Below are positions 34,125 through 51,156 of a DNA stretch of 64,000 bases, in pieces. The number at the start of each line of letters is the position of its first letter. The stretch's first letter is position 1. The DNA is from Sporosarcina oncorhynchi (lineage in GTDB: Bacteria > Bacillota > Bacilli > Bacillales_A > Planococcaceae). Where the stretch lies: positions 492,001 through 556,000 of the forward strand of contig NZ_CP129118.1 in NCBI RefSeq assembly GCF_033304615.1, in the 5' to 3' direction. A program made the position numbers and the translations under genes. The notes beneath the pieces are model-generated. The model was given only the letters and a program-made list of their open reading frames with translations, searched no databases and was not told the DNA's origin.

Positions 34125-34333
34125 CTTTAAGAGCAAATCTGAAGACACTCTAATACTAGATTATTAAAGATCATCTTCAAACAACTTCTACTACACTACT
34201 TGTTTACATTTTTACTTAAGTATTTGTTAATTCGAAAAAACTCCTTCTATTTAAATATCACACATCACAATTCCAAAACAATAATCACAAATAGTCAGAT
34301 TGCACGACTTTTCTTGAAACATTGCATAAATAC

Positions 34334-34361
34334 TTGATATTAATCTGAAATGCGATAGAAT
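34334..34361 (+). promoter_or_regulatory. S-layer gene promoter P1
   Basis: TTGATA (34334-34339) and TAGAAT (34356-34361) with a 16-bp spacer, about 180 bp upstream of the S-layer start codon. Confidence 0.55.
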
Positions 34362-34424
34362 GGTAGGAGCAGTGGGTAATTACATAGTTTTTGCATGGCA
34401 ATCTAGCAAAATATCATTAAGTAA

Positions 34425-34453
34425 TTGACAACCCTGCTATTAGTAACTATACT
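34425..34453 (+). promoter_or_regulatory. S-layer gene promoter P2
   Basis: TTGACA (34425-34430) and TATACT (34448-34453) with an ideal 17-bp spacer. The predicted mRNA has a leader of about 75 nt with a small hairpin (ATTTTG 34479-34484 with CAAAAT 34500-34505) and a strong AGAGGAGGA site, features typical of stable S-layer transcripts. Confidence 0.75.
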
Positions 34454-34537
34454 TTACAGTGTAATGGCTTCTACTTCCATTTTGCCGTGGGGTAGATGAC
34501 AAAATTTATTTTTTAAATTAGAGGAGGAAATTATTCA

Positions 34538-37500
34538 ATGGCTAACCAACCAACGAAGTACCGCAAGTTTATCGTGGGAGCTGCTTCAGCTGCACTAGTA
34601 GCATCAGCAGTTGCACCGGTAGCAAGCGCAAAAGATTTCAAAGATACGAAAGGTAACACACATGAAGCAGCAATCGACGCACTATCTGATGCAGGCATCA
34701 TCACTGGTTACGAAGATGGAACATTCAAGCCGAATAAAACATTAACACGTTCTGACGTTGTTAAGATGATGGGTAAATGGCTTGTATCACTAGGACATGA
34801 AGTTCCTGAAGACTACAAAACAAATCCACGTTTTGCGGATCAAACAGCTAAAACAAATGATGAGCTTCTTAAGTACTCAGCTCTAGTTAAAGATCACGGT
34901 GTATTCAACGGATATGAAAACGGTTCTTTGGGCGCTACTGAAGATATCACTCGTGAAAACATGGCAATCGTACTAGTACGTGCATATGACTCTATCAATG
35001 ACACGGACTTGGTTGCTTTCGTAGCAGAACAAGAATTCAAGAAAGATGTTACTGACCGTGCAACAGCAAAAGCGGAAGCACGTCCATACATCGACGTACT
35101 TGATTTCTTCGACATCACGAACCCAGCTGCACCACAATTCAATCCTAAAGCTACAACAACTCGTGGTCAGTTCGCTTCATTCCTTGACAAAACTTCTAAA
35201 GTAGAAACAGAAGCTCCTGAAGAAGAAGTAGTAACAGCTACTAAAGTTGAATCAGTAAGTGCGACTAACCTAAAAGAAATCGTCGTTGCTTTCGACGGCA
35301 CAGTTGATAAAGCTTCTGCAGAAAACTTAGGTTCATATAACTTGAAACTTGACACTTCTAACGTAGCACTTAAATCAGCTCGCCTACAAGAAGACGGCAA
35401 AACTGTAGTTCTTACATTGGATGCAACTCCACTTGATAACCAAGAAGAGTATACTCTAACTGTAACGAACGTAAAATCTTCTGATAAAAAAGTAAACGTG
35501 TCTGCAAAAGACTTTGCATTCACTCCAGTTGATGCTGCACTTCCTACAGTTGTTAGTGTTGAAGGACTTGGGAACAAAGCGATCAAAGTTACTTTCTCTG
35601 AGCCAGTTAAAGTTAATTCAACAGTAGCTGGAACATTCAAATTAGACGACAAAGTAGTATCAGGAATTCTTTCTGGTAACGGAACTCGCACTGTTATCAT
35701 CGAGCTTTTCAATACTATGACTACAGGTAAACACACTCTTGCAATTAATAACCAAGTAGAAGACTTTGCTGGTTACGACTTAGTTGCGACTTCTGTAGAA
35801 TTCGATGTAGTTGAAGATGTAACTGCACCGACTGTAGTTGAAGTTAAAGACGTTACTTTAGAAAGCGCAACTGTGGTATTCAGCGAAGATGTTAAAGATG
35901 CTGAAGCACTAAAAGGAAGCAACTACTACTGGATGAATGGTTCTACTAAACATGCAGCTGATGCGACAGTAGAAAAAATCGACGGTAAAACGTTCAAATT
36001 AACTTTCTCTGGTAACAATAAACTTCCAGCTGTTGCAATTGATTTGTATGTTACAAATGTAGTTGACTACAGTGGAAACAAAATTGCTGCTGATACAAAA
36101 GTAACAATTAGCCCAGTAATTGATCAAACTCGTCCAGAAGTAGTGAGTGCAGTATTTGCTGACACAAATGACAAGTTGACTCTTACTTTCAATAAAAATA
36201 TCAATCCTTCTACGTTCAAAGCTACAAATGTAGTATTAAAAGACGAAGATGGTAAAGTAGTTACAGGTTACGGTTATACAGTTTCAGAATCAGGTTCTTC
36301 AAGCCGTACATTAACTGTGAACTTCTCAGAAGCACTTGATCCAGGAACATATACTTTTGAGTTAACTGGAATTCAAGATACTACAACATTGAAAAACACT
36401 GCACTTCCAATCGTTGAAACATTAGAAGTTGCAAACGTATCAAAACCAAAAGTAACTTCTGTAACTGGTGACAAGAACGTTTACTTCGTAAACTTCAATG
36501 CAGCAATGGATATTTCATCTGATGCTTCGGTGTTAAATCCTGAGAACTACTATGTGAAGTATGTGCAAAGTGGAGTTACAAGAACTGGTAAACTACCTGC
36601 AAGTACAAATATTACTCCAATAAACGGTAACAGAGGAGTTATTATTACTCTTCCAGCATCTGTATCTTCACTAGAAGAAATCACAATTCAAGGTGTTAAA
36701 GGTGCTAATGGTGTCTACCTTGATGGATTCTCAGTTAAATATGGTGATTCTACTAACCCAATCGTTAACACATTCGATATTGATCGGGTAAATGCAACAG
36801 CAAAAGATACATTGTTGGTTAAATTCAATCAACCAGTTGCCTCTGTTGATAGATTACTACTATCAGTTGGTTCTCTAACAGTAACAGATGCTGAAATTCA
36901 AGCTGATAATACTGTAGTGAAATTAACTTTAAGTGGAAAACTAGATACTGATGCTACTGGTGCTACTTTAACTTATTCTGCTAATGCATTTAAGAGCTTA
37001 TCAGATCGTACTGTAACAGGTACTTCTGAAACTGTTCTCGATTCAATTGCACCAGAGGTTAAGAAAGATTCTGATGGTAAAATTACTGTTGCTACTACAG
37101 GTACTTCAACTACACCTGGTATCTTTGTAGATGCAGCTAACGAAAAAATCACTATTAACTTCCAAGAAGCTGTTAAAGCTAAGAATATTGCGGACGTACG
37201 TGATAACTTCAAATTGTATCTACCAAACGGTTTAGCACTTGAGTACGGTGTAGACTTTAAAATTGATAGCACAACAGCTACTGACCTTGTAAGAACAGCT
37301 GGTACTTCTTCTATCGTACTTGATCTTTCAGATGCTACTTATGACGGTGCATTGAATGTTCAATTCGATAATACTAATGCTAACATCGTTGATGCAGATG
37401 CTTACAAAACAAATGGTACAGCTAACACTGCTTTAGCTGCTGCTGGTTTTGATACTCGCACTAGTGGTTCTACTACAGGAACTATCAACACTGGTGTAGC

Positions 37501-38212
37501 ACCAACAATTACAACTGCAGTTTACAATGCTGGTGGTACAGGTTCTCCAGCGCAACCAGAGGTTAAAGCTACTGCTAATGTAGACTTTGGTACTGACGCT
37601 TCTGGTGATACAGATGCTCTTAAACTTACTTCTAAATTAACAGGAACAAGTGGTAATGGCCTAGTTGTGAAATTTGTAAATGCTATTGATAATGCAGCAA
37701 CAACTGTAAATGTTGTCGGCGGTGAATTAGTTGTAGAACTAGCGGATGACGGTAGTGCTGGAACGCCTGGTGCTATTACAGCTACTACAGCACAAGTAGT
37801 TACAGCAATTAATGCGGCTACTGGGGCTAATTCTGTTGTAAGTGCTGCTTTAGTTGGAGATGGTTCAGCAACTGCTGCAACTGCAACTGCAACTACTGCT
37901 GGTGGTATAAATGCAGCACCTGAAGTGCCTGCAGGTACTACAACATTAGTTCTCACATTTAGCGAAGCAATGAATATTGCATCTCTTGATGCTGCTAACG
38001 AAATCGTTATCAAAAATTCAGGTGGTACTGCAGTTCGCTCATTAGGTACTAATCCGACATTCGTGTGGAATACTGCAAAGACTATCCTTACAATTACTCC
38101 AGGAGCATCTCACGATGTAGTCTCAGGTGATGTTATTACATCTACAACGGCTAAAGATGCATCAGGAAATGCTGTTGATTTAACTAATTCTGCCGATAAA
38201 GTTCTTAACTAA
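34538..38212 (+). CDS. S-layer protein, expressed copy
   Basis: A 1224-residue surface-layer protein. It has a signal peptide (1-31, ending PVASA), three SLH repeats (about 32-220; SLH1 has GYEDGTFKPNKTLTRSDVVK) that anchor it to the wall polymer, and a short acidic linker (EAPEEEVVTATKVESV). The body from about residue 240 is a chain of Ig-like SbsB/Big5-type domains, with recurring VTFSEPV-type and DYSGNKIA-type strands. Two promoters, a leader hairpin and an excellent ribosome binding site indicate high expression. Codon use is richer in A/T-ending codons than in the genes upstream. The body has a promoterless homologue at 44312-47165, with an identical 15-bp stretch (35257-35271) at the SLH/body border. 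Four recombinase genes follow. Confidence 0.93.
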   Translation: MANQPTKYRKFIVGAASAALVASAVAPVASAKDFKDTKGNTHEAAIDALSDAGIITGYEDGTFKPNKTLTRSDVVKMMGKWLVSLGHEVPEDYKTNPRFADQTAKTNDELLKYSALVKDHGVFNGYENGSLGATEDITRENMAIVLVRAYDSINDTDLVAFVAEQEFKKDVTDRATAKAEARPYIDVLDFFDITNPAAPQFNPKATTTRGQFASFLDKTSKVETEAPEEEVVTATKVESVSATNLKEIVVAFDGTVDKASAENLGSYNLKLDTSNVALKSARLQEDGKTVVLTLDATPLDNQEEYTLTVTNVKSSDKKVNVSAKDFAFTPVDAALPTVVSVEGLGNKAIKVTFSEPVKVNSTVAGTFKLDDKVVSGILSGNGTRTVIIELFNTMTTGKHTLAINNQVEDFAGYDLVATSVEFDVVEDVTAPTVVEVKDVTLESATVVFSEDVKDAEALKGSNYYWMNGSTKHAADATVEKIDGKTFKLTFSGNNKLPAVAIDLYVTNVVDYSGNKIAADTKVTISPVIDQTRPEVVSAVFADTNDKLTLTFNKNINPSTFKATNVVLKDEDGKVVTGYGYTVSESGSSSRTLTVNFSEALDPGTYTFELTGIQDTTTLKNTALPIVETLEVANVSKPKVTSVTGDKNVYFVNFNAAMDISSDASVLNPENYYVKYVQSGVTRTGKLPASTNITPINGNRGVIITLPASVSSLEEITIQGVKGANGVYLDGFSVKYGDSTNPIVNTFDIDRVNATAKDTLLVKFNQPVASVDRLLLSVGSLTVTDAEIQADNTVVKLTLSGKLDTDATGATLTYSANAFKSLSDRTVTGTSETVLDSIAPEVKKDSDGKITVATTGTSTTPGIFVDAANEKITINFQEAVKAKNIADVRDNFKLYLPNGLALEYGVDFKIDSTTATDLVRTAGTSSIVLDLSDATYDGALNVQFDNTNANIVDADAYKTNGTANTALAAAGFDTRTSGSTTGTINTGVAPTITTAVYNAGGTGSPAQPEVKATANVDFGTDASGDTDALKLTSKLTGTSGNGLVVKFVNAIDNAATTVNVVGGELVVELADDGSAGTPGAITATTAQVVTAINAATGANSVVSAALVGDGSATAATATATTAGGINAAPEVPAGTTTLVLTFSEAMNIASLDAANEIVIKNSGGTAVRSLGTNPTFVWNTAKTILTITPGASHDVVSGDVITSTTAKDASGNAVDLTNSADKVLN

Positions 38213-38283
38213 GAATTAGTTCGGTACAAATTTCTATCACGATTTGATAATTATATTCTATTAAATTGGTGATTGAATGTTAG

Positions 38284-38320
38284 AAACCCTGCAGAGTAAA
38301 ATCTCTGCAGGGTTTTCTAT
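38284..38320 (+). terminator. S-layer gene terminator
   Basis: AACCCTGCAGAG and CTCTGCAGGGTT form a 12-bp perfect stem with a TAAAAT loop and a T-rich tail. Confidence 0.9.
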
Positions 38321-38433
38321 TATTTTTCTATAATTTTGGATACCAGTCATCAATTAACTCTGAATACTTCTGAGCTGAAGGCTCCGTGGAAAGACATATC
38401 TTCGGGGTTTATCTTGTAAATTAGTGTTGTACC

Positions 38434-38512
38434 CTGTACCCTTCAAAAGTATATCCGGAGAAAATTAATACTAATTTCTCGAGATAGGCTAATTTTTTGT
38501 TGTCCCTATTAG
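38434..38512. repeat. Copy A of a recurrent terminator-like hairpin
   Basis: CTGTACCCTTCAAAAGTATA, then TCCGGAGAAAATTA and TAATTTCTCGAG followed by a T-run and TTGTCCCTATTAG. It matches the layout of copies at 47499, 50795, 52234 and 53645. Confidence 0.6.
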
Positions 38513-38816
38513 GTGATTTTGAATGTTGCTTTGCTTTTTTACACAGAGAGATTCATTGTAGTGATTGTTCAAAAATTAATAGTTTAATTCTAATAAAGTA
38601 CAGTTAATTCGAGTTCACTAGAATTTGAATGACTACTAGAATTGCAGAAATCCCCTTGAGTCTTTCGACTCGAGGGGATTTCTTTCTATATCAAGGAAAA
38701 GACAAATATATATTTAGTTTATAGTATTTTGTTTAGAAAAAGAAATATCAGTTAACAATAGCAATATTCATTGATTTGTTCCTATTACAAAAAAAAGGAA
38801 GGAGGTTAATAGCCAT
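38513..38816 (+). other. Leader of the recombinase operon with an orphan terminator
   Basis: A strong hairpin, AGAAATCCCCT with AGGGGATTTCT and TGAGT/GACTC inside, lies at 38646-38684 with a T-run. It isolates the recombinase operon from upstream transcription. The rest is very AT-rich; GGAAGGAGG at 38797-38806 serves the first recombinase. No clear sigma-A promoter stands out between the terminator and the gene. Confidence 0.6.
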
Positions 38817-39701
38817 ATGAATAAGTACTGGATAAGCAATAATCAATCTATCTCTCAAAATAGGAGAACATTATTAAATGAGTATTTGCTGAGTTTGAAA
38901 TTAGAAAACAAAGCAGAGGCGACGATTACAAAGTATAGGAGTATATTAGAGCAGTTTTTTAGTGAATGTACGATTCCATTAGATGAACTAACATCCTCAG
39001 ATGTTTTGACGTGGTTGAATATGTTTTCTGAAGATAAAAAACCAAGAACCATTGATCTTGTTCTCTCAACGCTTTCCTCTTTTTTTAGTTTCTGTCTGGC
39101 GGAGGAATATATGGATACGAGAGTCACTAAGCAACGCTGGCGGCCGAAGATACCGGAGTCCTTGCCTAAATATTTGAATGAACAGGAATATGCAAGGGTA
39201 AAACGAGCAGCTGAACGGTTATCTGTACGGAACCGTGCATTGATCTTGTTTTTATTTTCGTCTGGATGTCGTGTATCAGAGTTATCGAATCTTAATATAC
39301 AAGATGTCGATCTCAAAAAACGGACAGCTGAGGTAAAAGGAAAAGGGGGGAAGATTCGTCATGTTCATTTTTCGGAAGAGTGTGCTATTGTGCTACAGGA
39401 TTACTTAGGAACCCGCGATATTGATCCTACAGCACCTTTATTGATGAATAAATTTGGCAACCGTCTCTTAGGTGGTGGAATTCGCAACGTAACAAATAAA
39501 TTAGGAGTAGAAGCTGGACTTAAACAATCATTACATCCACATAGTTTGCGACATACGTTTGCGACAAATATGTTGGCCAGAGGTGCAGATATTCAATTTA
39601 TCTCAGAAGAAATGGGCCATTCCGATTTGAATACGACACGCATCTATGCACGTATACCAACAGAAGACATGATTTTACAATATCAAAATATTATGGGGTG
39701 A
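38817..39701 (+). CDS. Tyrosine recombinase A1
   Basis: A 294-residue XerC/D-type site-specific recombinase. The N-terminal SAM-like core-binding domain (about 20-110) has NEYLLSLKLENKAEATITKY. The catalytic domain has Arg in SSGCRVSELSNL, Lys in VKGKGGKIRHVHF, HxxR in HPHSLRHTFAT, His in EEMGHSDLNTTRIYAR and Tyr in the same segment, so all six active-site positions are present. It is a clear paralogue of the third gene of the operon (A2). Its stop is 4 bp before the TTG of B1. Location between an expressed S-layer gene and a silent S-layer body suggests it acts on this locus. Confidence 0.92.
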   Translation: MNKYWISNNQSISQNRRTLLNEYLLSLKLENKAEATITKYRSILEQFFSECTIPLDELTSSDVLTWLNMFSEDKKPRTIDLVLSTLSSFFSFCLAEEYMDTRVTKQRWRPKIPESLPKYLNEQEYARVKRAAERLSVRNRALILFLFSSGCRVSELSNLNIQDVDLKKRTAEVKGKGGKIRHVHFSEECAIVLQDYLGTRDIDPTAPLLMNKFGNRLLGGGIRNVTNKLGVEAGLKQSLHPHSLRHTFATNMLARGADIQFISEEMGHSDLNTTRIYARIPTEDMILQYQNIMG

Positions 39702-39705
39702 AGCT

Positions 39706-40539
39706 TTGAATAAAGAAGTTATACAACTCTTCTTCAATGACAATAAGAATAGATTTAGCCCGGAAACCGTACGTGCTTATAATATTGCCCTCACTCAATT
39801 CTTTTCTTGGTGTGAAAAAAATTACGGTGCGGTAAAAACAAAAGATATTCGCGATTGGATGTCTTATCTGACTGACGATGGGTTGAAGCCGCGTAGTGTT
39901 GAATTGAAATTGACAGCTGTTAAATCATTCTATAATTATTGCATGGAAGAGAACATATTGGAAAAAAATCCTGCCCAAAGAGTACGAACACCTAAAAAGG
40001 AGGATTCGCTTCCTTACTATTTGGATAAAAGACAACTCGCATTATTTCAGGAATTACTCAAAGATAATCTGAGGGACCGTGCGATATTGGAAACCCTATA
40101 TGCAACAGGAGTACGTATCAGTGAGCTACTGAATATCAGGTTAGAAGATATAAAATGGGATACTCGCCAGATCTGGATACGAAAAGGGAAAGGAAATAAA
40201 GAACGATTTGTTTTATTTACACATGATTGTGCTGAGCGATTAAAGCCATATTTGGACCAACGTAGTTTTAACAGCGAATACCTCTTTTCAAATAATAGAG
40301 GCGAACCGCTAAGTCGTGATTTAGTAGAGTTGCTTTTTCGAGAATACTCGGCAATTTTAGGATTTAGGGTAACACCACATACCATGCGCCATACATTTGC
40401 CGCGCATTTAGCAGAAAAAGGCATGACCTTTACCTACATTCAGGAATTGCTGGGTCATGCGAATATTAACAGTACGCGTATCTATACCCGCCTCATGAAT
40501 CATGCACGAAAGAAAAAGTATGATCAATTCCAAATTTAA
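39706..40539 (+). CDS. Tyrosine recombinase B1
   Basis: A 277-residue tyrosine recombinase starting at TTG behind GGGGTGAA. The core-binding domain spans about 1-95. Catalytic residues are Arg in ATGVRISELLNI, Lys in RKGKGNKERFV, HxxR in TPHTMRHTFAAHL, and His/Tyr in LLGHANINSTRIYTRL. The HARKKKYDQF tail is shared with B2 (HARKEMYDEW), so B1 and B2 form one subfamily distinct from A1/A2. It is coupled to A1 with a 4-bp gap, suggesting a stoichiometric pair like XerC/XerD. Confidence 0.92.
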   Translation: MNKEVIQLFFNDNKNRFSPETVRAYNIALTQFFSWCEKNYGAVKTKDIRDWMSYLTDDGLKPRSVELKLTAVKSFYNYCMEENILEKNPAQRVRTPKKEDSLPYYLDKRQLALFQELLKDNLRDRAILETLYATGVRISELLNIRLEDIKWDTRQIWIRKGKGNKERFVLFTHDCAERLKPYLDQRSFNSEYLFSNNRGEPLSRDLVELLFREYSAILGFRVTPHTMRHTFAAHLAEKGMTFTYIQELLGHANINSTRIYTRLMNHARKKKYDQFQI

Positions 40540-40557
40540 TAGAAGGAGAAGAGAAAA

Positions 40558-41445
40558 ATGGAAAGGTACTGGGAACTGAAAATACAACTACCGAATGCTG
40601 AGAATCAAAAGGTAGTTAATGAGTATTTATTAAGTTTAAAAGTAGCAAATAGAAGCTTTTACACGATTAATAATTACAGGATTTTCTATCAAACCTTTTT
40701 CAAAGAGGAAAAGGCATCCTATGCAGCCCTCACCTCGGATCATATTCAAAAATGGTTAATTCAAAATGATACGGGGCTTAAAAAAAACAGCATTAAATTT
40801 CATATCAGCGCTCTTTCGACATTTTATAAATTCTGTGTGGAAGAAGAATATATAAAAAAGTCACCAATCAAAAAGCGTTGGTATCCCCGTGCTGAGAAGC
40901 CTATCCCTAAATACCTGACGAAAGAGGAAACTTCGAAAATTCGTCGGCTACTTGAGGATTTACCACTTAGAGATAGGGTAATCTTTGAGTTTACGCTTAC
41001 TTCAGGTTGCCGTATTGGGGAGGTTCATCGTCTGGATAAGGCAGATATCGATTTTGAAAATCGGACGACACGCGTTGGTGGTAAAGGAAAAAAGATTCGC
41101 CAAGTCCATTTTTCTGAAATGACAGCACTTCTCTTAGAACGATACCTCCAATCGCGAAAAGATGACCACCCTGCCCTCTTTGTCACACATAAGGAACCCC
41201 CCACACGTCTATCTGCTAATTGGGTAGGTAGGTCAATGAGGAATTTGGGGGAAAAGGCAGAACTACCGGGTTCTCTCCACCCACATCGACTTCGGCATAC
41301 GTTTGCAACGGTTTTATTAGCAAAAGGGGCTGACATTATGTTTATCGCGGATGAATTGGGTCATTCCGATATCAAGACAACGCAAATTTATGCACGACTA
41401 CCAAAACAACAAATTATTTCAATGTACCGCAAATATATGGGATAA
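40558..41445 (+). CDS. Tyrosine recombinase A2
   Basis: A 295-residue paralogue of A1: both open with a YW motif (MERYWELK / MNKYWISN) and share NEYLLSLK. Active-site segments are TSGCRIGEVHRL (Arg), GGKGKKIRQVHF (Lys), HPHRLRHTFAT (HxxR), and ELGHSDIKTTQIYARL (His, Tyr). It starts 18 bp after B1 behind AGAAGGAGAAG. The enzyme looks complete. Confidence 0.92.
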   Translation: MERYWELKIQLPNAENQKVVNEYLLSLKVANRSFYTINNYRIFYQTFFKEEKASYAALTSDHIQKWLIQNDTGLKKNSIKFHISALSTFYKFCVEEEYIKKSPIKKRWYPRAEKPIPKYLTKEETSKIRRLLEDLPLRDRVIFEFTLTSGCRIGEVHRLDKADIDFENRTTRVGGKGKKIRQVHFSEMTALLLERYLQSRKDDHPALFVTHKEPPTRLSANWVGRSMRNLGEKAELPGSLHPHRLRHTFATVLLAKGADIMFIADELGHSDIKTTQIYARLPKQQIISMYRKYMG

Positions 41446-41457
41446 GGAGGACTGGAG

Positions 41458-42303
41458 ATGGATATAGAAACCATCATCAAGCAATTCCTATTTGATCATC
41501 AATTTCGAATGGAACCAGGTACGTTAAAGCTCTTTAAAACTGCGTTACGACAATTCCAACTTTACTCAGGAAAACCATTTGAAGAGATTACAAAAAGTGA
41601 TATCCGGAGTTGGTTGAATTATCTATCGACAGAAAAAGGATACAAACCAAGTACCCTTAACACTAAGCTAGCCGCTTTAATAAACTTCTATAGATATTGC
41701 ATAGAAGAAGACTTTATCACGCAGAATCCAACCAACAATATTAATTATGTTTATGAAGAAGAAAAACTACCACAGTATTTATCAATGGAACAGCTTGCTC
41801 AGCTTCGTGAATTCTTAAAAGGGCGAATTCAGGAGAGAGCAATCATGGAAGTCTTGTATGCTACTGGTGCAAGAATTAGTGAACTGATTGCAATGAAAAA
41901 AACGGAGATCAACTGGTCAGAACGATATATTGTGATTCCAGAAGGGAAACGAAAAGTAGGGCGTATCGTCTTATTCACAATTGAATGCGCAGAACACTTG
42001 AAGGCATATCTTGACAGTCGGTCGGACGACTCACCATCTGTTTTTTTATTGTTCAATTCAGATGGGACACTTCCGAAAAATTCCAATATGTTAGCAGAGT
42101 GGTTTAGGTATTACTCGAAACGATTAGAGTTTAAGGTAACACCACACACATTGAGGCACACGCTTGCAGCGCACTTGGCAAGAAAGGGTATGCCGCTGGT
42201 ATATATTCAAGCGTTGATGGGCCATGAAAGTTTCCATACAACTCGAATCTATGCCAAATTACATGATCATGCCCGTAAGGAGATGTATGATGAGTGGATG
42301 TAA
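41458..42303 (+). CDS. Tyrosine recombinase B2
   Basis: A 281-residue paralogue of B1 and last gene of the operon, starting behind AAGGAGGACTGG. Active-site segments are ATGARISELIAM (Arg), PEGKRKVGRIV (Lys, less canonical), TPHTLRHTLAAHLA (HxxR), and LMGHESFHTTRIYAKL (His, Tyr). The A-B-A-B order implies duplication of an ancestral pair. A terminator follows at 42350. Confidence 0.92.
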   Translation: MDIETIIKQFLFDHQFRMEPGTLKLFKTALRQFQLYSGKPFEEITKSDIRSWLNYLSTEKGYKPSTLNTKLAALINFYRYCIEEDFITQNPTNNINYVYEEEKLPQYLSMEQLAQLREFLKGRIQERAIMEVLYATGARISELIAMKKTEINWSERYIVIPEGKRKVGRIVLFTIECAEHLKAYLDSRSDDSPSVFLLFNSDGTLPKNSNMLAEWFRYYSKRLEFKVTPHTLRHTLAAHLARKGMPLVYIQALMGHESFHTTRIYAKLHDHARKEMYDEWM

Positions 42304-42349
42304 TCCGTCCCAGAATCCTTGCCAATCAACTATATTGAATATAGTTTTC

Positions 42350-42388
42350 AAGCCTTTTATTAATTATTAAATAGAAGGCTTTTTTATT
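42350..42388 (+). terminator. Terminator of the recombinase operon
   Basis: AAGCCTT and AAGGCTT flank an AT-rich apex and are followed by TTTTTATTTT. Confidence 0.75.
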
Positions 42389-42734
42389 TTGCCTTAACCA
42401 AAACTCCGCGTGTTTCATTTCTCGTAAGAAACCTTAATAGGACATAGCCACTCGACAAAATCTCTTCTAACATTGTTATTGTTTTTAGTCTGTGTCAATA
42501 GTTTCTCTATTGGTAACGTATATTGGTAACCATAAAAGCATCTACAACCATCCTTGCCAATATATCCTCTCTATATACTTCCTGTCACTTATTTATTTTG
42601 AACTACAATAGTTTACAGTTTCTCAGTTTCCCATAGACATGTTTCCTGCATTTCTCTAATCTTTACCAGTCCATTGAGCGTTGTAGTGATAGAATAATGG
42701 GTAATAGCATGGAAATACTCTGGGGGGCAAAATA
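42389..42734. other. Intergenic region, nothing recognised
   Basis: A 346-bp AT-rich gap. I see no gene or clear repeat. TATTGGTAACGTATATTGGTAACC at about 42508-42531 is a short direct repeat (TATTGGTAAC twice, 14 bp apart) that could be a binding site. Confidence 0.4.
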
Positions 42735-42926
42735 ATGAGAAAGCTAAAGAGAAATAGAATTCGATGTACACATTGTGGGGATGTTATTGAGTCGAAAAGT
42801 GAACATGATCTTACTTGGTGTTCTTGTGAAAAGGTAGCGGTGGACGGTGGACTGGAATATAGCAAACGTTTGTATCCCGCAGGAGCTGCAGAGGATCATT
42901 TTGAAGACTTATCGGAATTTGAATAG
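42735..42926 (+). CDS. Small zinc-ribbon protein (DUF7695-like)
   Basis: A 63-residue protein with IRCTHCGDVIESKSEHDLTW followed by CSCEKVAVDGGLEY. The two Cys pairs (CTHC and CSC) suggest a zinc ribbon, and the layout resembles small DUF7695 proteins found in many Bacillales. Function unknown. It starts behind TGGGGGGC. Confidence 0.7.
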   Translation: MRKLKRNRIRCTHCGDVIESKSEHDLTWCSCEKVAVDGGLEYSKRLYPAGAAEDHFEDLSEFE

Positions 42927-43104
42927 TTGATTAGATCGTGTTATAAAAGTCAACATGAAATTGGTGGGTCGCTGTAGGAGGGATACAGCAAAATCAATTT
43001 GGCAATCAAGTAGATGCAACGACCTTTAATAATCTAATCTCAAAATTCAAATGGTTTTGTACGGTGAGCAAGGTTGTTGTTTAAATTCTTCCATAGGTGA
43101 TGAA

Positions 43105-43665
43105 ATGAAGATAACTAAATTAGATATAAATCTAAATAGGCAGATTAATTTGTTTGAGAGAAAATATTCAAGCGAAGATAGGATTCTCTTTGAGGAATTA
43201 CATGATTATATTGTTAGGAATAAATCAATCCAAGGGATCGATATTGAAATACCTCCTATGGATTTCACAGGTGACATTGGATATTTTGTAAATAAAGAAA
43301 AAAAGTACAAATATAAAGGGGGAATTAATTTTTTGTACGGTGAAGATGGAGGCATTCTCAATATTGGAAATACAAATGACTTGTATCTAAGAATCTATCA
43401 GAAATGGATTGGGAAAAACGGAGGATCGAGAGCTGATTATTATTTCAGTGATTACTACAGGGGTGTTTCACTCTTTTGTGAAGAAAGTGATTACAAAAGA
43501 AAATTATATGAACCTTACTTAATAAACAAACTTCAACCACCTCTAAATGATCAGTATAATTACTATAATAAAAGCTTGTATAAAGAACTATTAAAGAAAG
43601 AGGAATTGGCTTCGCCATCAAATCATTACATGGGCTTTGGTTATAAAAGCCCAAATGATTACTGA
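43105..43665 (+). CDS. GIY-YIG-like nuclease domain protein
   Basis: A 186-residue protein. The segment GGINFLYGEDGGILNIGNTN then DLYLRIYQ corresponds to the GIY...YIG core followed by the basic helix, and YEPYLINKLQPPLND resembles the Glu and Asn motifs near the end of such domains. The N-terminal 75 residues are unassigned. The first strand has F-L-Y where GIY is usual, so activity is uncertain. The ATG at 43105 behind ATAGGTGAT is preferred to the upstream GTG-initiated frame. It is probably an accessory gene. Confidence 0.6.
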   Translation: MKITKLDINLNRQINLFERKYSSEDRILFEELHDYIVRNKSIQGIDIEIPPMDFTGDIGYFVNKEKKYKYKGGINFLYGEDGGILNIGNTNDLYLRIYQKWIGKNGGSRADYYFSDYYRGVSLFCEESDYKRKLYEPYLINKLQPPLNDQYNYYNKSLYKELLKKEELASPSNHYMGFGYKSPNDY

Positions 43666-43684
43666 GCTAATAAAATAAAGTGAA

Positions 43685-43999
43685 GTGATAAGAGTGACCG
43701 ATATGTATGATAACATCCTACAAAAAGCAAAGGAATTCAACCTTTCTAAAGTAAGTTACGAGCAATTGGAAAAAGTAATGGCCGTTGCAAGACACGCAAA
43801 GTTACCATTTCGTAAGTCCAATGATCTTGAAATAAAAGACTCATTTGATTTGGCATTAACTCTGACTGGCGCAACGGCATTGTACGAATCATTTCAAGCG
43901 AATGGAGAGGAAGGACGAATTGCGTATCTGAATGAAAAAGGTCAACTCGTTCACCATTATGCCGATGGCAGCATTCAAATCATACAGGAACGAGCTTAA
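43685..43999 (+). CDS. Hypothetical protein, about 100 aa
   Basis: A frame of up to 104 codons with three candidate starts (GTG 43685, GTG 43694, ATG 43703); none has a strong ribosome binding site, the best being AAGTGATAAG. The protein is soluble: a helical first half (NILQKAKEFNLSKVSYEQLE) and a beta-rich end (GRIAYLNEKGQLVHHYADGS). No family is recognised. Confidence 0.5.
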   Translation: MIRVTDMYDNILQKAKEFNLSKVSYEQLEKVMAVARHAKLPFRKSNDLEIKDSFDLALTLTGATALYESFQANGEEGRIAYLNEKGQLVHHYADGSIQIIQERA

Positions 44000-44248
44000 C
44001 TCAACAGGCTGCTTGCATAGCGCCTTTTCCTTCAACCATGTGAAAAGGAATTGGCTGCTGTGATGGGGTAAAGAGTATGTAAGTCCCCCTTACGGGAAGG
44101 GGGTGTATGAAGCCGTTCTCATTTTTGAAGTATAAAGAACCCAACGATTTTACACCGGGAGTTGATTGAGCCTTTGCTCACCGAATTCCCGAATGGGTTC
44201 AGTCCGCATAAACATCCTTAACGTGAATTATAAAATGGTGCAAAAAGA
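44000..44248. other. Region upstream of the silent S-layer cassette
   Basis: No convincing gene. Two hairpins are visible: CCTTTTC with GAAAAGG (44022-44049) and CCCCCTT with AAGGGGG (44085-44103). No promoter reading into the following cassette is evident. Confidence 0.4.
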
Positions 44249-44289
44249 GGCTTCATCCCTTGATACATAAGGGATGAAGCCCCTTTTTT
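44249..44289 (+). terminator. Strong terminator immediately before the silent S-layer cassette
   Basis: GGCTTCATCCCTT and AAGGGATGAAGCC form a 13-bp perfect stem with a GATACAT loop, followed by CCTTTTTTA. Its 3' arm contains the only in-frame ATG of the cassette frame. It should stop any transcript entering from upstream. Confidence 0.92.
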
Positions 44290-47165
44290 ATGGAGGCGGT
44301 ATTGGAACGGAAAGTGCGACTAACCTGAAAGAAGTTGTAGTAGCATTCGACGGTACAGTTGATGAAGATACAGCTACTGACAAAGCGAACTATGCTTTGA
44401 AATCAGGTAAAGCAATTAAATCCGTAGCTATTTCAGCTGATCAAAAATCAGTTACAGTTACATTGGAAGGTACTCTTACAAACAACAAAACAGAAGCAAT
44501 TTCTGTATCCAATGTTAAAGCTGGCGACGTTACAATCAACGAAAAGAATGTTGAGTTTAACGTTTCAGACAACAAACTTCCAGAAGTTACTGAAATCAAG
44601 TCTCTTGGAACTAAATCAGTAAAAGTTTCATTCACTGAGCCAGTTACAGACTTGCAACAAAGCAACTTCACGTTAGATGGCAAAGCATTCTTCGGTAGAA
44701 TCGACATGGGTGCTGGTAATAAATCAGCTATTCTAACACCATTCAGTACTTCTGCTCTTGCAGTTGGCGATCATACACTAACTGTTTCTGGAGTTAAGGA
44801 TTTTGCTGGATTCGTTTCATTGAATTCAACACATGACTTCACAGTTGTTGAAGATAAAGTAGCCCCTACAATCGTTGAAGCAACAGCTACATTGGAAAGT
44901 GTAACAATTACTTTCTCTGAAGACGTTGACGCTTCTACTGTATCGGCTTCAAAAGTTTACTGGAAATCTGGTGACTCTAAGAAAACAGCAACTGGAACTC
45001 CAGAAGCTTTAGCTGATAACAAATACAAATTCACTTTCTCAACATCAAATCCAGATAACTCTCTTCCAACTGGAAAAGTAGATATCTTTGTTGAAGGCGT
45101 GAAAGATTACTCTGGTAACGAAATTGCGAAAGATACAAAAGTTTCAGTAACACCTGAGATTGACCAAACTCGTCCAGAAGTAAGAAAAGTAACAGCTACA
45201 AGTGCAACAGAATTTACAGTTACTTTCTCAAAAGCTCTTGATTCTACAAGTGCTCAAGCAGTAGGTAACTACGTTGTTACTGATAAAAATGGTAAAGTCA
45301 TTTCTGTTAAAGACGCAACATTATCTGCTGATAAAAAATCTGTACACGTTGAATTGTATACAAGCCTATCAGTAGGCGAAAACTCACTTACAGTTAAAAA
45401 TGTTAAGGATGCAACAAAACTTAAAAACACAATGCTAGATTTCACTGGTAAGATTGTTAGAGGAGATCAAACAGGTCCTAAGTTTGATTCTAAAGTTGTG
45501 AATCCAACAAATCTTCGTGTAGTTCTTAAATTCAACGAAAAAATGGATGTTGCAACACTAGCTGATTATTCAAATTACCTAGTTACAATTAACGGCACTT
45601 TACAAACACTAACTGCTGATATGGCAGACATTGCAATTACACAAGACGGCACAGCTGTTATCATTAGCTTTGTTGAAACTTTCAATGGTAAAAAGGTTGT
45701 CTTTACTTCATCTGAATCACCAAATACAAATGAAGTAAATATCAACAAACTTACTGTACTTGGTGTGAAAGATGCTGCAGGTAATCTGTTGCAAGAATTC
45801 ACAAACGTCGGTACTGATAACGAAGTTCCTATCACAAATCAAGCTACTGAATTAAAACTTGTGAAAATTGACAGTGACTATGATGCAGTAGCAGAATTAG
45901 TAGACAGAAGAACTGTAAAAGTTAAGTTCTCTACTGGTATTAACTCAGCATCTTCAGCTGCATTTACAACTGCTAGTGGACCAACAATCAGCTCTATTGA
46001 TGTAGATGGTACATCAATTGTAACGCTTAAATTCAACTCGAACATCGATACAGATGGTAATAATCTAGCACTTAGAGTAAACTATGCTGGACTTGAAGAT
46101 ATTGCTGGAAACAAAGGTGCAACTAGCAACGTAGCCATCACTAAAGGTGATGATCTATTAGACTCTGTAGCTCCAGTATTAGATGGAGATCCAGTATTCA
46201 CAGCTGACGGTAAGATTAAACTTACTTTCTCTGAAGCATTGACTACAACTACTAATGTCGGTGAGCTATTGAATAGCGAAGTTTCTGTTGTCCGTATCTC
46301 GGATAATAAGAAGTTGGATATTAGAAATGGTTATTCTGTAGCTGTTGCTGATGGAAGTAAGGACATTGTAATTGAACTTAAAGATGCGGATGCTCGTGAA
46401 GCTAAAACTGCGTACCGTGTTTCTGTCGATGGTGCTAAATACATCACAGACAAATCAGTTCTAAATAACCCAATTGCTAATTTCAGTGTAACAACTGATA
46501 AAGTTGATCCTGCAGCTAACATCACTGGATCACTCGCTCACACAACTCCTGGTGTTGCAACAAACCCTGGAACACCGGAAGTACTTGGTGAGGATACTGT
46601 AACATTTGCAAACGAATTTAAAGCTAACGATACTGTTACAATTGATGGTGAAGTATTAACACTAACAGCAGACGCGGCTGATGGAACAGAAGCAGCAGCT
46701 GCAGTAAAAACTCTTGTCGAGGCACATGCTACATTAAAAGAAAAGTATACAGTTACTGCTAATGCTGCTGTTTTAACATTTAAAGAAAAAACAGGTAAAG
46801 CAGATGGTGTAGCTTTAACAGCTACTAAATCATCAGCAGCTGGAACTGTTAGTGCTACATCAGTTACTACTGGTGTAAAAGGAGTAGCTGAAACTCCTGG
46901 AACAGCTCAAGTGGAAACACTTACTGTTAGTGGTACTACAAATGCTGATGGTAGCATTAAAGTGAAATTTAACGATGGCACAGAAGTAGAAAAAACTGTT
47001 GCAGTTAAAGCTGGAGATACGAAAACTCAAGTAGCAACTAAAATTGCGAATGCATTCGCTGACTTAGCTGGATGGACTGTAACAAGCACAGAGGATAAAG
47101 TTGTATTCACAGCTAATCCAATTGCTGCTCATAAAGATAATGTTACTGTAACTGTTACAAAGTAA
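44274..47165 (+). pseudogene. Silent S-layer body cassette (no signal peptide, SLH, RBS or promoter)
   Basis: A 963-codon open frame whose protein is homologous to the body of the expressed S-layer protein from residue about 241 on: SATNLKEVVVAFDGTVD here, SATNLKEIVVAFDGTVD there, then matching Ig-like domains (VTPEIDQTRPEV against ISPVIDQTRPEV) that diverge strongly towards the C-terminus. It has no signal peptide and no SLH domains. The only upstream ATG lies in a terminator stem without a ribosome binding site, so it should not be expressed as it stands. Homology starts at base 44312 with a 15-bp identity to 35257-35271 in the same codon phase. The intact 2.9-kb frame suggests it is maintained as a donor. 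A simple 5'-truncated pseudogene is the alternative. Confidence 0.85.
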
Positions 47166-47225
47166 TAAGTTAATTTACATTCAAGCCAATCTATTTCATA
47201 TGCAATAGTTAGCTGAATGGAAATC

Positions 47226-47263
47226 AGCCCTTTAATCCTAATAATGGATTAAAGGGCTTTTTA
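47226..47263 (+). terminator. Terminator after the silent cassette
   Basis: AGCCCTTTAATCC and GGATTAAAGGGCT form a 13-bp stem followed by TTTTT, so the cassette keeps its own terminator. Confidence 0.9.
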
Positions 47264-47656: not shown

Positions 47657-49117
47657 TTACTCTACTTCCTTCATTAAGGTCAAGATTCGTTTAAGATTTA
47701 CTGCGAATATGGTCATGGCACCTTGCATCTGCATGCCAAATAACCCCGCGTATGTGGCTACATCATACCCGTGTCTTTGTTTTATTTCACTGTTTTTCGC
47801 TTCAACTTTATAACGAGATTTAGCTATCTCTTTGAATTCCTCGCTATTTTGGAACGCTTCCTGTTCTTTATGTTCTGTCGATTTTATCGTCACAGAATAG
47901 GTCTTGCTTTTCGCACCTTCTTTATAACATCCATCCCTAAATGGACATGTTTTACATTTTTCGATGTCAAAATAATAGGTTTGTCGTTGATTCTTTCCTA
48001 CATTCTTTTTATTCGTACGTGCTTTGCGAATGGCCATATGTCCAGCCTTGCAGACATACATGCCAGCATCTTTATTGAACTCGAATTCATCTTCCTTCGC
48101 TCGGCCACCTTGTGTGATGGAAGGATTTAACTTGGCCACCAATTGAAGTTTGTTTTCTTTTGCATAATGGATGTTGTCTTTTTCTGAATAGGCGGTATCA
48201 CCGATGACCGTATCAATTTCCATTCCTGTTCCTTGGCTTTTCTCAATCAGTTCCTGCAGATATTTTCCGTCGCTTTTTTCACCAGTTGTCACAATCGCAG
48301 CTGTAATCAATCGCTCATCATTGATCGCGAGATGTGTTTTGTAACCGAAGAAAGAAGAATCTGCTGTTTTATGTCCGACACGCGCGTCGGGATCTGTTGA
48401 GAAATCGAGCTGTTCTGCGAAATCTTCCACCACTTCTTTTAACACATTCAATTTTTCTTGAACAGCTGGTATACGGGCGATGTGCTCTTCTTTTTCAATG
48501 ACAGTGATGACTTTCTGGCAATAATCCAACTCATCCTGCACTTCGTTGGAAGTGGTTTTGGACGGGAACTTCTCCTTCATTGATTCATCAATTTGATAGA
48601 CTGCCTTTCGTACATTCTTAGACTTCTCCATCAGGAACTCTTTGGGTGATTTTTGGTTATATCTTGATTTCGTATGTGTTGCGTCCACGATAATGGTTTT
48701 ACTCGTTATTAACTTTTTTTCTAGCGCGATATCAACCGTTTTATAGATGAGCATGTCTAATAGACCTACATCTTTAAGACGAAGTTTGCGGAATTTCGTT
48801 AATGAACTCGGGTTGATGACGTCATCTTCCGGCGCCATGTCCAGAAAGAATTTAAAGGACATATCGTATTTAGATCGTTCAACTACATCCACGTCTGAAA
48901 GATCGAAGATCGACTTCAACAATAAATATTTGAACATCCGAATTGGGGGGACTGCATTGCGTCCGTTGTCCAAGCAATACTTGTTTTTCAATTCATCAAG
49001 GATGAATGTGAAATCGACAAGCTCGCCAATCTGGCGTAGCATATTATCTTTTGGGACGACAATATCGTAGATTGCCATGTATGGACTTAGATTCAATGTT
49101 TCTTGGGTTGAAATCAT
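47657..49117 (-). CDS. IS1182-family transposase
   Basis: A 486-residue DDE transposase. It has an N-terminal domain (DUF772-like, about 20-100, with MFKYLLLKSIFDLSDVDVVE) and a DDE catalytic core: TSKTIIVDATHTKSRYN (first Asp), DTVIGDTAYSEKDNIHYAKE (second Asp) and a C-terminal segment RYKVEAKNSEIKQRHGYDVA with the Glu. A Cys-rich insertion (CKTCPFRDGCYKEG) is typical of the IS1182 family. The frame is intact, with a GAGGTGG site before the ATG, so the element may still be active. Confidence 0.92.
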   Translation of the reverse strand: MISTQETLNLSPYMAIYDIVVPKDNMLRQIGELVDFTFILDELKNKYCLDNGRNAVPPIRMFKYLLLKSIFDLSDVDVVERSKYDMSFKFFLDMAPEDDVINPSSLTKFRKLRLKDVGLLDMLIYKTVDIALEKKLITSKTIIVDATHTKSRYNQKSPKEFLMEKSKNVRKAVYQIDESMKEKFPSKTTSNEVQDELDYCQKVITVIEKEEHIARIPAVQEKLNVLKEVVEDFAEQLDFSTDPDARVGHKTADSSFFGYKTHLAINDERLITAAIVTTGEKSDGKYLQELIEKSQGTGMEIDTVIGDTAYSEKDNIHYAKENKLQLVAKLNPSITQGGRAKEDEFEFNKDAGMYVCKAGHMAIRKARTNKKNVGKNQRQTYYFDIEKCKTCPFRDGCYKEGAKSKTYSVTIKSTEHKEQEAFQNSEEFKEIAKSRYKVEAKNSEIKQRHGYDVATYAGLFGMQMQGAMTIFAVNLKRILTLMKEVE

Positions 49118-49246
49118 CGGGACACCACCTCAATGTAATACGGCAATTATACCCCAAATAAAACGAAGTCCACTACCTATTTTTACTGGTAGTGGACTTC
49201 GTCAAGCTAACTTATTCAAAAACCAATTCTGATTCCTGGCAGTCTC

Positions 49247-49388
49247 CGTTGATTGGAGCGTAAGTCGGCGACTCCTGCGGGATAAGCGGGACAGGTGAGA
49301 CCCCGCAGGAAGCAGAGCGAAGCGCCGCGAACGAGGAGGCTCACCGCCCGCGCCGCGGAACGCGTCCGACTGAAGCGCAAATCAACAG
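49247..49388. repeat. Bacillales dispersed repeat with GTTGATT / AATCAAC ends
   Basis: The stretch starts CGTTGATTGGAGCG, contains GACTCCTGCGGG and CCCCGCAGG, GAGGAGGCTCACC, and ends AAGCGCAAATCAACAG. I recall this GC-rich composite palindrome from many Bacillus-group genomes. Here it lies just inside the right end of the IS1182 element. Confidence 0.65.
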
Positions 49389-49566
49389 TATTGTACTTTT
49401 TCAGTGGCCTCGATTTCTCCGGTGGGCTTTTTCTATTCAGCTCTATTTCAGGATTTTTACCATGCAATTTAAGGGAAGAAGAGTGTCGAAATATAGGAGA
49501 AGATAAAGTTGAACATGCCAAATAAGCCTTTTCACAAGGCTTTTGAAAAATATTCAATTGATTCGG

Positions 49567-50667
49567 TTAAGCGGCTTTTTTATAAGTGTGATAGAGACCA
49601 TTTAAGATTGGCGTTGCATCCAATACTGTATCCTCAACTGATGTAGGAAGGTAAACTGGTGAAGGAATCGGCGTCTTGCCGTTAATTCCTTGATATGTTC
49701 GGTCGGTATTGTAATAGCCTTTAATGTATTCCGTAAGCAAACCGCGTAGGTGTTGCTCATTCAGCGGAATCACTTGGTCAACCAACTCTCTTTTGATCGT
49801 ACCAATGACTCTTTCAGCATAGGCGTTTTGCCAAGGTGAGCGGTATGCAGTTTTCTTTGATGTAATGGCTGATGACTGTAAGAAAGCTTGAAATGCTTTG
49901 GAACAGAAAATGGGGTCATTGTCATGAATCAAGTATCTTGGAACTTTACCGTACGGCGTTGCATTTCGGAATTGTTGGATGGTCCATTCCGCTGTTGGAT
50001 TGGTCGTAACATTGAAATGAACAATTTCACGCGTTTTATGGTGGATGATCACTAAGACATGAAGTACGTTAAAGGTAAGTGTAGGAATCGTAAAGAAATC
50101 GGTTGCCCATGTCTCATTCTGATGATTGTGCAAGAAAGTTTTCCAAGATTGTATCTGTTTCTCGGAAGGTGGTTTCCTGGAGCTTGGCAGATACTTAGCA
50201 ATAGTGTTGGGTGCAGGTGGCTTATCGATTCCAAGTAACTGGAGCTTTTCATGAATCTTCTCCGGTGATAATAGTGGATTTTCCTTATGTACTCGTTTGA
50301 TCAGTTGGATTGTTGTAGGCGATATTGTAGGCCGTCCTATTTTTTTCGATTTCTGCTTCCAGTAAAATTTGAAGGCAGTTCGGTGCCACCGAATGACAGT
50401 GTCGGGTTTAACCATCACTAAAGATTTCTTCCAATTCTCCATGTGCTTAGATAGTAACACCCAGAGTTGCCGGAAAGCAGGAGTTGGACGTGGCGTTGGA
50501 ATTTTTTCTTTTTCAAAACGACGGACATACGATGCGAGTTGGCTCCTTAATGCGATGTTTTCCATATTGGTTGTATGCTTGGTCATAAAATTGTTTTTTA
50601 GATATGTAACCAAATAACCTAGCCACTCTTTACTATACTTGTACAGTGATCGTAGAAATGACAACAT
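49567..50667 (-). CDS. Integrase-core transposase, copy 1
   Basis: A 366-residue transposase with a retroviral-type integrase core. The N-terminal third is helical, with an HTH-like region (VKPDTVIRWHRTAFKFYWKQ). The catalytic triad is Asp in TWATDFFTIP, Asp in LIHDNDPIFCSKAF, and Glu in WQNAYAERVIGTIKRE. The ATG at 50667 follows GGAGGG. The gene is followed by a small terminator (AAGCCTT/AAGGCTT at 49524-49542). It is homologous to the copy at 52429 over the whole length and to the remnant at 53768. I cannot find terminal inverted repeats. Confidence 0.88.
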   Translation of the reverse strand: MLSFLRSLYKYSKEWLGYLVTYLKNNFMTKHTTNMENIALRSQLASYVRRFEKEKIPTPRPTPAFRQLWVLLSKHMENWKKSLVMVKPDTVIRWHRTAFKFYWKQKSKKIGRPTISPTTIQLIKRVHKENPLLSPEKIHEKLQLLGIDKPPAPNTIAKYLPSSRKPPSEKQIQSWKTFLHNHQNETWATDFFTIPTLTFNVLHVLVIIHHKTREIVHFNVTTNPTAEWTIQQFRNATPYGKVPRYLIHDNDPIFCSKAFQAFLQSSAITSKKTAYRSPWQNAYAERVIGTIKRELVDQVIPLNEQHLRGLLTEYIKGYYNTDRTYQGINGKTPIPSPVYLPTSVEDTVLDATPILNGLYHTYKKAA

Positions 50668-51156
50668 ACCGAATCCCTCCAAATTGTATAGTTTGGTTTA
50701 GCATCCATTGTATACAAACGGTAGTTGAAGTTCTAGTGAAACCACTATTTGATTGCTAGAGTAATAATATCTAAAAAGTTGCTATTAGAGACGGCTGTCG
50801 CTTTTATATAGTCCATTCCGACAGAAATCCCTGTAGAGGATGTCTTTTTATTATCCTAATCTGTCTAATGAGAGAAAAAGAATGGTATCAGAGCAGTTTA
50901 TGTTTAAGACCGATTGGAAAGGACTAGTTTCTATGGATTGTATGATACCTAATTGGATACCGCCTTAACCGTTGCAGATGAAATAGAAATGTTGAAGAGT
51001 GAAAAAAGCGGTGCTGTATATTGCTTAAATGTTATGGATTTGTATAGCTTAGCGATTAAAATTAGATGAATCGATTCTGATTGCTGGAAAGGACTGGCCT
51101 TCGGGTTGGTTCTTTCTTTTTGGTTTGGTAGAATTGTAGGGAGTGAGGTGAGAAAT
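50668..51156. other. Intergenic region with hairpin copy E and possible gene debris
   Basis: Hairpin copy E is at 50795-50856. Between 50880 and 51070 short frames (for example TVADEIEMLKSEKSGAVYCL) read like protein but are broken by stops, suggesting a decayed gene. No intact gene is visible. Confidence 0.4.
50795..50856. repeat. Copy E of the recurrent hairpin
   Basis: CTGTCGCTTTTATATAGTCC, ATTCCGACAGAAATCC and a T-run after GAGGATGTC. It is diverged from copies B and C. Confidence 0.5.

Follow-up and report, generated by a model that had tools for sequence, protein, structure and literature searches.

The window analysed here, a 64-kb stretch (C1:492001-556000) of the complete 3.48-Mb chromosome of Sporosarcina oncorhynchi, carries an S-layer gene, four consecutive tyrosine recombinase genes (38817-42303) and a long reading frame encoding an S-layer body without an anchor (Table 1). 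We call the SLH-bearing N-terminal part of the S-layer protein its head, or anchor, the rest of it body 1, and the product of the headless frame body 2. An earlier note on this DNA had described the S-layer gene with its SLH anchor, the recombinases and a stop-free headless frame, and Pfam matches and open frames agree with it on all of their positions. In the S-layer protein, Pfam recognised one SLH stretch above cut-off (residues 34-73) together with Big_5 domains. A database search found the head to be 68-84% identical to the other 119 proteins among the matches listed. The closest relative of body 1 among 70 matches listed, from searches with queries other than body 1, was 39% identical.

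Table 1. Features of the locus, in coordinates of the window
Feature	Position	Strand	Remark
Two sigma-70-like promoter matches	34334-34361, 34425-34453	+	Consensus match only; upstream of S-layer gene
S-layer gene	34538-38212	+	1,224 aa, SLH at N-terminus
Head (anchor)	34538-35256	+	Signal peptide (by eye) and SLH region
Left core AAGTGCGACTAAC, predicted attL	35257-35269	+	In frame (VESV-SATN), SLH/body border
Segment between cores, predicted integrative element	35257-44311	+	9,055 bp; missing from the corresponding gene of G218
Body 1, predicted cargo of element	35270-38212	+	Presumably expressed
Two terminator-like hairpins 3' of body 1	38283-38316, 38646-38683	+	
R1, tyrosine recombinase	38817-39701	+	294 aa
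R2, tyrosine recombinase	39706-40539	+	277 aa
R3, tyrosine recombinase	40558-41445	+	295 aa
R4, tyrosine recombinase	41458-42303	+	281 aa
Two open frames between R4 and hairpin site	43051-43665, 43685-43999	+	Possible cargo
Outer TTAAC	44218-44222	+	Left end of hairpin unit
Hairpin unit	44223-44311	+	Conserved stem-loop and bases left of core; terminator-like 44249-44281
Right core AAGTGCGACTAAC, predicted attR	44312-44324	+	Start of headless body homology
Body 2, headless and silent; predicted to be the original body, displaced	44312-47165	+	

The earlier note also had the S-layer gene expressed from two promoters. Promoter-like sites do lie at both places: the downstream site scored 11/12, the top score of the scan, and the upstream site 10/12, a score shared by four other sites of the region. 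Since the whole stretch holds 31 such sites against a mean of 42.8 in shuffled sequences, both the promoters and the expression of the gene should be regarded as putative.

No stop interrupts the headless frame between 44274 and 47165, and its first ATG lies within the 3' arm of a hairpin. Homology between the bodies starts at 44312, at the residues SATNLKE, and extends over 941 columns with 30% identity; body 2 is closer to a protein from another genus, P0123 of L. sphaericus (57% identical), than to this neighbour. With the head as reference, codon adaptation was 0.668 in body 2 and 0.663 in body 1, against 0.40-0.47 in nine other genes; measured against body 1, body 2 scored 0.732 and the same nine genes 0.36-0.58. 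The high-expression codon bias that body 2 has kept suggests a body that was, until not long ago, strongly expressed. Downstream of it, IS elements occupy 47657-50682.

All four recombinases possess the catalytic residues R...HxxR..GH...Y. R1 and R3 are 42% identical and R2 and R4 44%, with the remaining pairs at 30-34%, which suggests a duplicated two-enzyme set whose two pairs perhaps act as two different half-site binders. Profile searches placed the proteins among Xer/integron-type recombinases, under the cut-offs for XerC, XerD and the integron integrases. Their scores reached at most 237 against 335 for the XerC equivalog and 222 against 330 for XerD, which separates them from the housekeeping enzymes; with TIGR02249 they gave at most 117 bits against a cut-off of 265, unlike an IntI-type integrase, and with the integron-integrase model PRK15417 they also stayed below cut-off. 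Only the broad XerA/integron-integrase model NF040815 was exceeded, by R1 and R2. The solved structures closest to R1 by sequence are of the XerA and XerD types. The two open frames that follow R4 had no Pfam or NCBIfam match at E 0.01; the first of them is GIY-YIG-like by eye.

Two cores and a hairpin unit

A 13-bp core, AAGTGCRAYTAAC, occurs exactly twice in the 64 kb, at 35257 and 44312, in the same orientation and 9,055 bp apart; in 100 shuffles it averaged 0.02 occurrences and never reached two. The claim that the homology begins at the SLH/body border is thus borne out to the base. Among 10 head genes, the alanine codon of the core is GCG in 7, a codon that makes up only 2-8% of the alanine codons there; these genes are related, so the cases are not independent.

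The right core closes a hairpin unit. In array-bearing relatives this unit spans about 100 bp and consists of TTAAC, a stem-loop with a conserved apex, a T run, about 15 bases and GGAAAGTGCGAYTAAC or a near variant, after which the body begins. The arms of the window's hairpin lie at 44242-44261 and 44269-44288. In a covariance model built from 14 aligned units, the TAAC at both ends is invariant in all 14, and 10 of the 15 stem pairs have changed on both sides, with 40 compensatory cells compared to 12.7 in shuffled alignments and at most 8 in slid controls. Such covariation would suit a folded recombination site like the attC of integrons, and it is also expected from a conserved terminator by itself. 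Folded as DNA, the hairpin is far stabler than shuffles on both strands (z -4.3 and -5.9). Since its sequence is at the same time that of an ordinary terminator, any part that it plays in recombination is inferred.

The model scored the window's unit at 99 bits (44208-44328), the sole strong site in the whole genome; the next independent match had 29 bits. A search of the same genome with body 2, which bodies of other types would escape, returned nothing beyond both bodies of this locus and a single weak match in the tail. The further SLH-less bodies that the earlier note had suspected elsewhere in this genome therefore did not turn up.

Distribution among relatives

A relative of R1 at E 1e-40 was present in 18 of 261 genomes of the family, and we compared 20 stretches around such matches from the 17 other genomes. 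G057 and G140 hold R1 fragments only. The complete set, R1 to R4, was found in 16 of the 261, the window's own genome included, with an interruption between R2 and R3 in G216. In all 16 a hairpin unit of at least 55 bits lies on the same contig as the array: 11-19 kb beyond R4 in G188, G042 and G156, and before or between arrays in G170 and G189; at a second G189 array (C23) no unit was found within the examined part. A headless body stands directly behind the hairpin unit in 13 of the 16 (the exceptions are G215, G157 and G188). Hairpin units of at least 55 bits also occurred in 20 of the 245 remaining family genomes. Solo units without arrays thus exist, several of them beside unrelated genes, and other recombinases may use hairpin sites.

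A head gene with an in-frame core was present in the examined array flanks of nine genomes; the flanks examined in the other seven yielded none. Pfam found SLH in the core-bearing heads of the window's genome, G236, G188, G189, G046 and one of two G186 genes, and did not find it in the other G186 gene or in G227. The heads of G216 and G156 are 71% and 64% identical to that of the window. When each hairpin core was compared with its own stretch, a clear partner (at least 27 of 32 bases, 8-10 kb away) emerged in three of the 16, namely the window, G236 and G046. In G215, where the array lies outside any S-layer gene seen, the match was limited to the core itself.

A class-wide sample gave matches at E 1e-70 in 2 of 398 genomes, the window's own and G227, and in an order-wide sample hairpin matches at E 1e-5 occurred in 22 of 150 genomes, all within the window's family. 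Among the matches listed in an R1-alignment scan of named genomes, Sporosarcina sp. ACRSM (70%) and Peptococcaceae BRH_c8a (50%) ranked highest; identity at the remaining 78 loci kept was 27-36%, and the hairpin site was absent at the 7 of these that were checked. Plasmids had no match to R1 at E 1e-40 or to body 2 at 1e-20, and phage records gave 26 relatives, all below 60% identity (the best 8 of the 26 are listed at 28-32%). Neither plasmids nor phages thus emerged as a vehicle.

Alternative bodies behind conserved anchors

We searched for body 2 in 68 genomes of the genus, and at E 1e-40 two genomes besides its own matched, G218 and G179. In G218 (L221), a different species, relatives of the window's neighbours SLH-CAP, S41, UDP-sugar dehydrogenase and WecG (47-81% identical) lie upstream of one SLH S-layer gene. 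This gene is unbroken: a head 64% identical to the window's is followed by VESVSATNLKE and then by a body of the silent type, about 52-54% identical to body 2. Its core, AAGCGCAACTAAC, has two differences in 13 bases, both synonymous. At the DNA level, window positions 34328-35293 align with L221 7161-8131 (72.7%) and 44312-45649 with L221 8095-9426 (69.0%), and the break in the window is located at the cores. The 60 bases before the G218 core have 32 matches to the left copy of the window and 16 to the right, and the 54 bases after it fit the right copy slightly better (35 matches versus 31). The 18 genomes in which R1 has a relative at E 1e-40 do not include G218, and the hairpin model gave no site above 21 bits in the stretch from G218. 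The genes downstream in G218 had no counterpart in the window, which has IS elements there; synteny is therefore established on the upstream side only. As the G218 anchor is joined to a body of the body 2 type and the break falls at the cores, the segment appears to lie inside a former anchor-body 2 gene. In G179, the relative of body 2 stands behind a different head (33% identical to the window's), without such a core at the border.

Headed relatives with an in-frame core were found for each of three searched silent bodies: in G218 for that of the window, and in G177 (52%) and G181:C44 (60%) for those of G168 and G181. In G177 and G181:C44 the head is shorter, looks exported by eye and gives no SLH match in Pfam; the core thus also serves a second kind of surface gene, and its target is not only SLH genes. 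The remaining matches of the G168 and G181 searches were a headless body in G186 and genes without such a core in G225 and G226.

The same combination of parts recurs among 236 distinct proteins compared from two database searches (best 120 of 696 and best 120 of 276). In P0122, whose N-terminus is cut, 161 residues of the head match that of the window at 82% identity, and the body shares 71% identity with body 2 and 32% with body 1. P0050, P0006 and P0045 likewise join a window-like anchor to the silent body type, at 53-58%. Together with G218, these four support the view that one anchor type is used with alternative bodies joined at the border, as had been supposed from the window. G188 and G189, both with SLH anchors, have heads 81% and bodies 28% identical; their arrays are 90.5% identical as DNA.

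A comparison of G189:C34, from a draft assembly, with G170:C11 located such a change of body precisely. The two differ by one mismatch in 14,833 bp and then diverge from a point five bases upstream of the outer TTAAC in a hairpin unit. Past this boundary both the hairpin unit and the body differ: the bodies mostly have 20-33 matches per 60 bases, slightly more in the first 240, and similarity is back in the C-terminal tail. The array after the G189 body is 89% identical to another array of G170 and 65% to the correspondingly placed one; G170 carries two headless-body-plus-array units in tandem. A boundary within 6 bp of TTAAC is, in these sequences, the clearest sign of what we take to be site-specific exchange. 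Because it lies about 100 bp before the window-type core, it indicates a second usable point and implies that a body can move together with the hairpin unit in front of it. The pair fits a model with the hairpin at the right end of the element only if either TTAAC is usable.

Proposed mechanism, alternatives and known systems

These data make it likely that the 9,055-bp segment is a site-specific integrative element that exchanges S-layer bodies in frame at the SLH/body border. A circle in which the hairpin core is joined to body 1 would recombine with a resident anchor-core/body 2, R1-R4 presumably cutting at the TAAC core, and the product would read anchor-core/body 1, R1-R4, hairpin-core/body 2. 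Integration would replace the exposed body and excision would restore the old one. The hairpin may act as the terminator that keeps the displaced body silent. Successive integrations at the anchor would leave a row of older bodies downstream, with only the most recent one expressed. The earlier note had seen a difficulty in that a crossover between the two copies would excise a 9-kb circle carrying the recombinases and the first body. The direct repeats and the expected excision stand, but they are not a problem for this mechanism, in which the circle would be the element itself.

The recombinases adjoin one expressed and one silent variant that share a core, and the silent body is intact with a high-expression codon bias, as would also be expected of a host phase-variation locus in which host-serving recombinases flip body 1 and body 2 often in culture, like Xer1 at vpma. 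We consider this unlikely: the repeats are direct rather than inverted, so that excision would lose body 1 and the enzymes unless they were re-integrated, the genome showed a single hairpin site and a single body related to the silent one, and complete arrays are patchy in the family, that of G215 lying outside an S-layer gene.

Homologous bodies in tandem, with IS elements downstream, could also have arisen by tandem duplication of the S-layer gene followed by entry of an unrelated recombinase island, the headless copy then being a decaying pseudogene. Yet body 2 is open over 2.85 kb with its codon bias retained, it resembles the L. sphaericus protein more than its neighbour, and in 13 of the 16 array genomes a core of this kind opens a headless frame. 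These points make the explanation very improbable. Hardly any weight can be given to exchange of bodies by general homologous recombination and gene transfer alone, with the array as a bystander mobile element. The bodies do vary over their whole length, and the C-terminal tail shared by G170 and G189 could serve such exchange; against it stand the 5' boundary, which falls at most 6 bp from a conserved site where 14.8 kb of DNA with a single mismatch ends, and the presence of array and site on one contig in every array genome.

The segment may represent a new mobile system, integron-like in logic, in which four tyrosine recombinases and a hairpin site transfer in-frame, domain-sized gene ends from genome to genome and always join them to a resident anchor; the cell would wear the most recent one, with older ones archived downstream behind terminator sites. 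To this broader proposal we give somewhat less than an even chance. Our searches of open-licence PMC papers showed no description of such an element. In many bacteria the S-layer is the outermost coat, and the fast diversification of S-layer bodies behind conserved anchors is an open question for which the locus offers a concrete, testable mechanism, whole-body site-specific exchange where anchor and body meet. It further points to a class of elements with half a gene as cargo, and its core and enzymes are a candidate natural tool for in-frame domain exchange on the cell surface.

In Campylobacter fetus (sap) and Lactobacillus acidophilus (slp), active and silent S-layer variants are switched by inversion of chromosomal segments. 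The window resembles these loci in having active and silent variants and in the DNA rearrangement that we predict; to our knowledge, neither has a four-recombinase element. Prophage e14 integrates in icd and provides this gene with another 3' end. That end is short and nearly identical, whereas the body here has about 980 residues and is only 30% identical. With integrons the locus shares hairpin-bearing sites, the NF040815 scores of R1 and R2 and, in our model, a position effect by which the segment beside a fixed leader is expressed. It differs from them in that the core TTAAC lies inside a reading frame and its segment is the body of a protein rather than a gene. An integron proper was rejected on the TIGR02249 and PRK15417 scores.

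Several tyrosine recombinases per operon and few chosen insertion sites are features of Tn554, SE, GInt and RIT elements, and SEs and Tn554 leave a 6-bp footprint, as summarised in PMC10214605 and PMC5385486. The operon of multiple tyrosine recombinases is common to these and the window; Pfam and NCBIfam recognised no TnpC, Tfp, Srap or GinD partner here, the target is a domain border within a gene, and the element brings a replacement coding end. Each of the four was rejected as an assignment. The Tn554 family has TnpA and TnpB followed by TnpC, whereas the window has four recombinases and then frames that match no family; RIT elements have three tyrosine recombinases in a row. In GInt (ginABCD), as outlined in these sources, ginC lacks catalytic residues and ginD is a different gene, while all four window proteins are complete in this respect; SE elements, in the same outline, are intA-tfp-intB-srap sets of Gammaproteobacteria, and the window differs in gene set and in its Sporosarcina-type host. 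In Mycoplasma agalactiae, a site-specific recombinase of the Xer kind, Xer1, varies the Vpma surface proteins behind one promoter (PMC5634654); by that account the system moves whole lipoprotein genes with a single recombinase, in contrast to the direct repeats and the predicted excision and integration of a large segment here.

The nearest precedent, as far as its descriptions go, is the sllA/sllB S-layer locus of Bacillus (Lysinibacillus) sphaericus JG-A12 / NCTC 9602, reportedly the subject of Pollmann et al. 2005. Work on these S-layers is cited in PMC4902306, and the summary in PMC3573754 has a chromosomal S-layer gene, an insertion element with a putative integrase/recombinase and an S-layer-like gene copy, an arrangement like that in the window. 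Compared by description, the insertion has three ORFs, including a transposase and an HTH protein, versus four recombinases here, and the summary mentions neither an in-frame core nor a hairpin site, both of which are present in the window. The present four-recombinase array also occurs in a Lysinibacillus genome, that of Lysinibacillus sp. KCTC 33748 (G046).

Hairpin units away from the recombinase array

The hairpin unit, a conserved site of about 100 bp with an outer TTAAC and a stem-loop, also occurs apart from arrays of the four tyrosine recombinases R1–R4. Dispersed matches to its covariance model were numerous in two genomes of the family set (11 in G076 and 7 in G075 at E 0.05, scoring up to 86 bits), and neither genome held a relative of R1 at E 1e-40. 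Because these many matches occur without an R1 relative, another recombinase family may use the hairpin site. On contig C12 of G198, three units are spaced at about 7 kb with unrelated genes between them; no recombinase of the R1–R4 type was found around them in the fetched stretch.

The DNA to the left of hairpin units was also examined. Immediately before 15 of 30 units, the opposite strand encodes the C-terminus of a further tyrosine recombinase, with the L-G-H box in frame and the sequence cut exactly at the TTAAC core. Open frames of 378–388 aa in G212, G202 and G186 end in one version of this C-terminus.

Core-bearing genes, R3 and the DNA behind the silent body

The core, the 13-bp direct repeat at the border between SLH head and S-layer body, also stands in frame in genes for exported proteins, where it marks the end of a short head (roughly 120–170 residues); in the four genomes tabulated, these heads had no SLH match. 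R3 carries an N-terminal extension in 14 of 18 arrays (516–749 aa), and the shorter form (295–324 aa) is found in the window, in G215, in G046 and in one array of G170. Behind the silent body of the window lie insertion-sequence frames and a further frame, whose start resembles that of the IS481/IS3-like frame.

Coordinates of the features (L numbers are fetched DNA stretches)
Feature	Location	Remark
Three hairpin units, G198:C12	288423, 295460, 302629	L172, L173
Hairpin units, opposite-strand recombinase end at left flank	L042, L046, L048, L052, L061, L172, L173, L175, L187, L189, L190, L191	examples
Core-bearing short-head gene, G177	L224	
Core-bearing short-head gene, G181:C44	L230	
Core-bearing short-head gene, G186	L054:13188-16250	
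Core-bearing short-head gene, G227	L057:2761-6645	
R3 homologues	L042:7059-8954; L043:11303-13219	examples
IS1182-type transposase and IS481/IS3-like frame; further frame	window 47657-50682 and 52429-53520	behind silent body
Second SLH S-layer-like gene	window 54413-57388	991 aa; downstream of IS elements
Four-recombinase array, G215	L044:3199-13160	

Arrays and hairpin units in other settings

The G215 array lies between direct core repeats of the window's kind, without S-layer genes, and downstream of a gene that by eye is uvrC-like. Solo hairpin units in G171 and G224 are some kilobases away from a uvrC-like gene. A related, partly broken recombinase array is present in a distant lineage, Peptococcaceae bacterium BRH_c8a (L063), together with a hairpin unit at 63 bits, which has TTATCCAAAGT repeats on its flanks; nearby is a gene encoding a protein of 2,343 aa.
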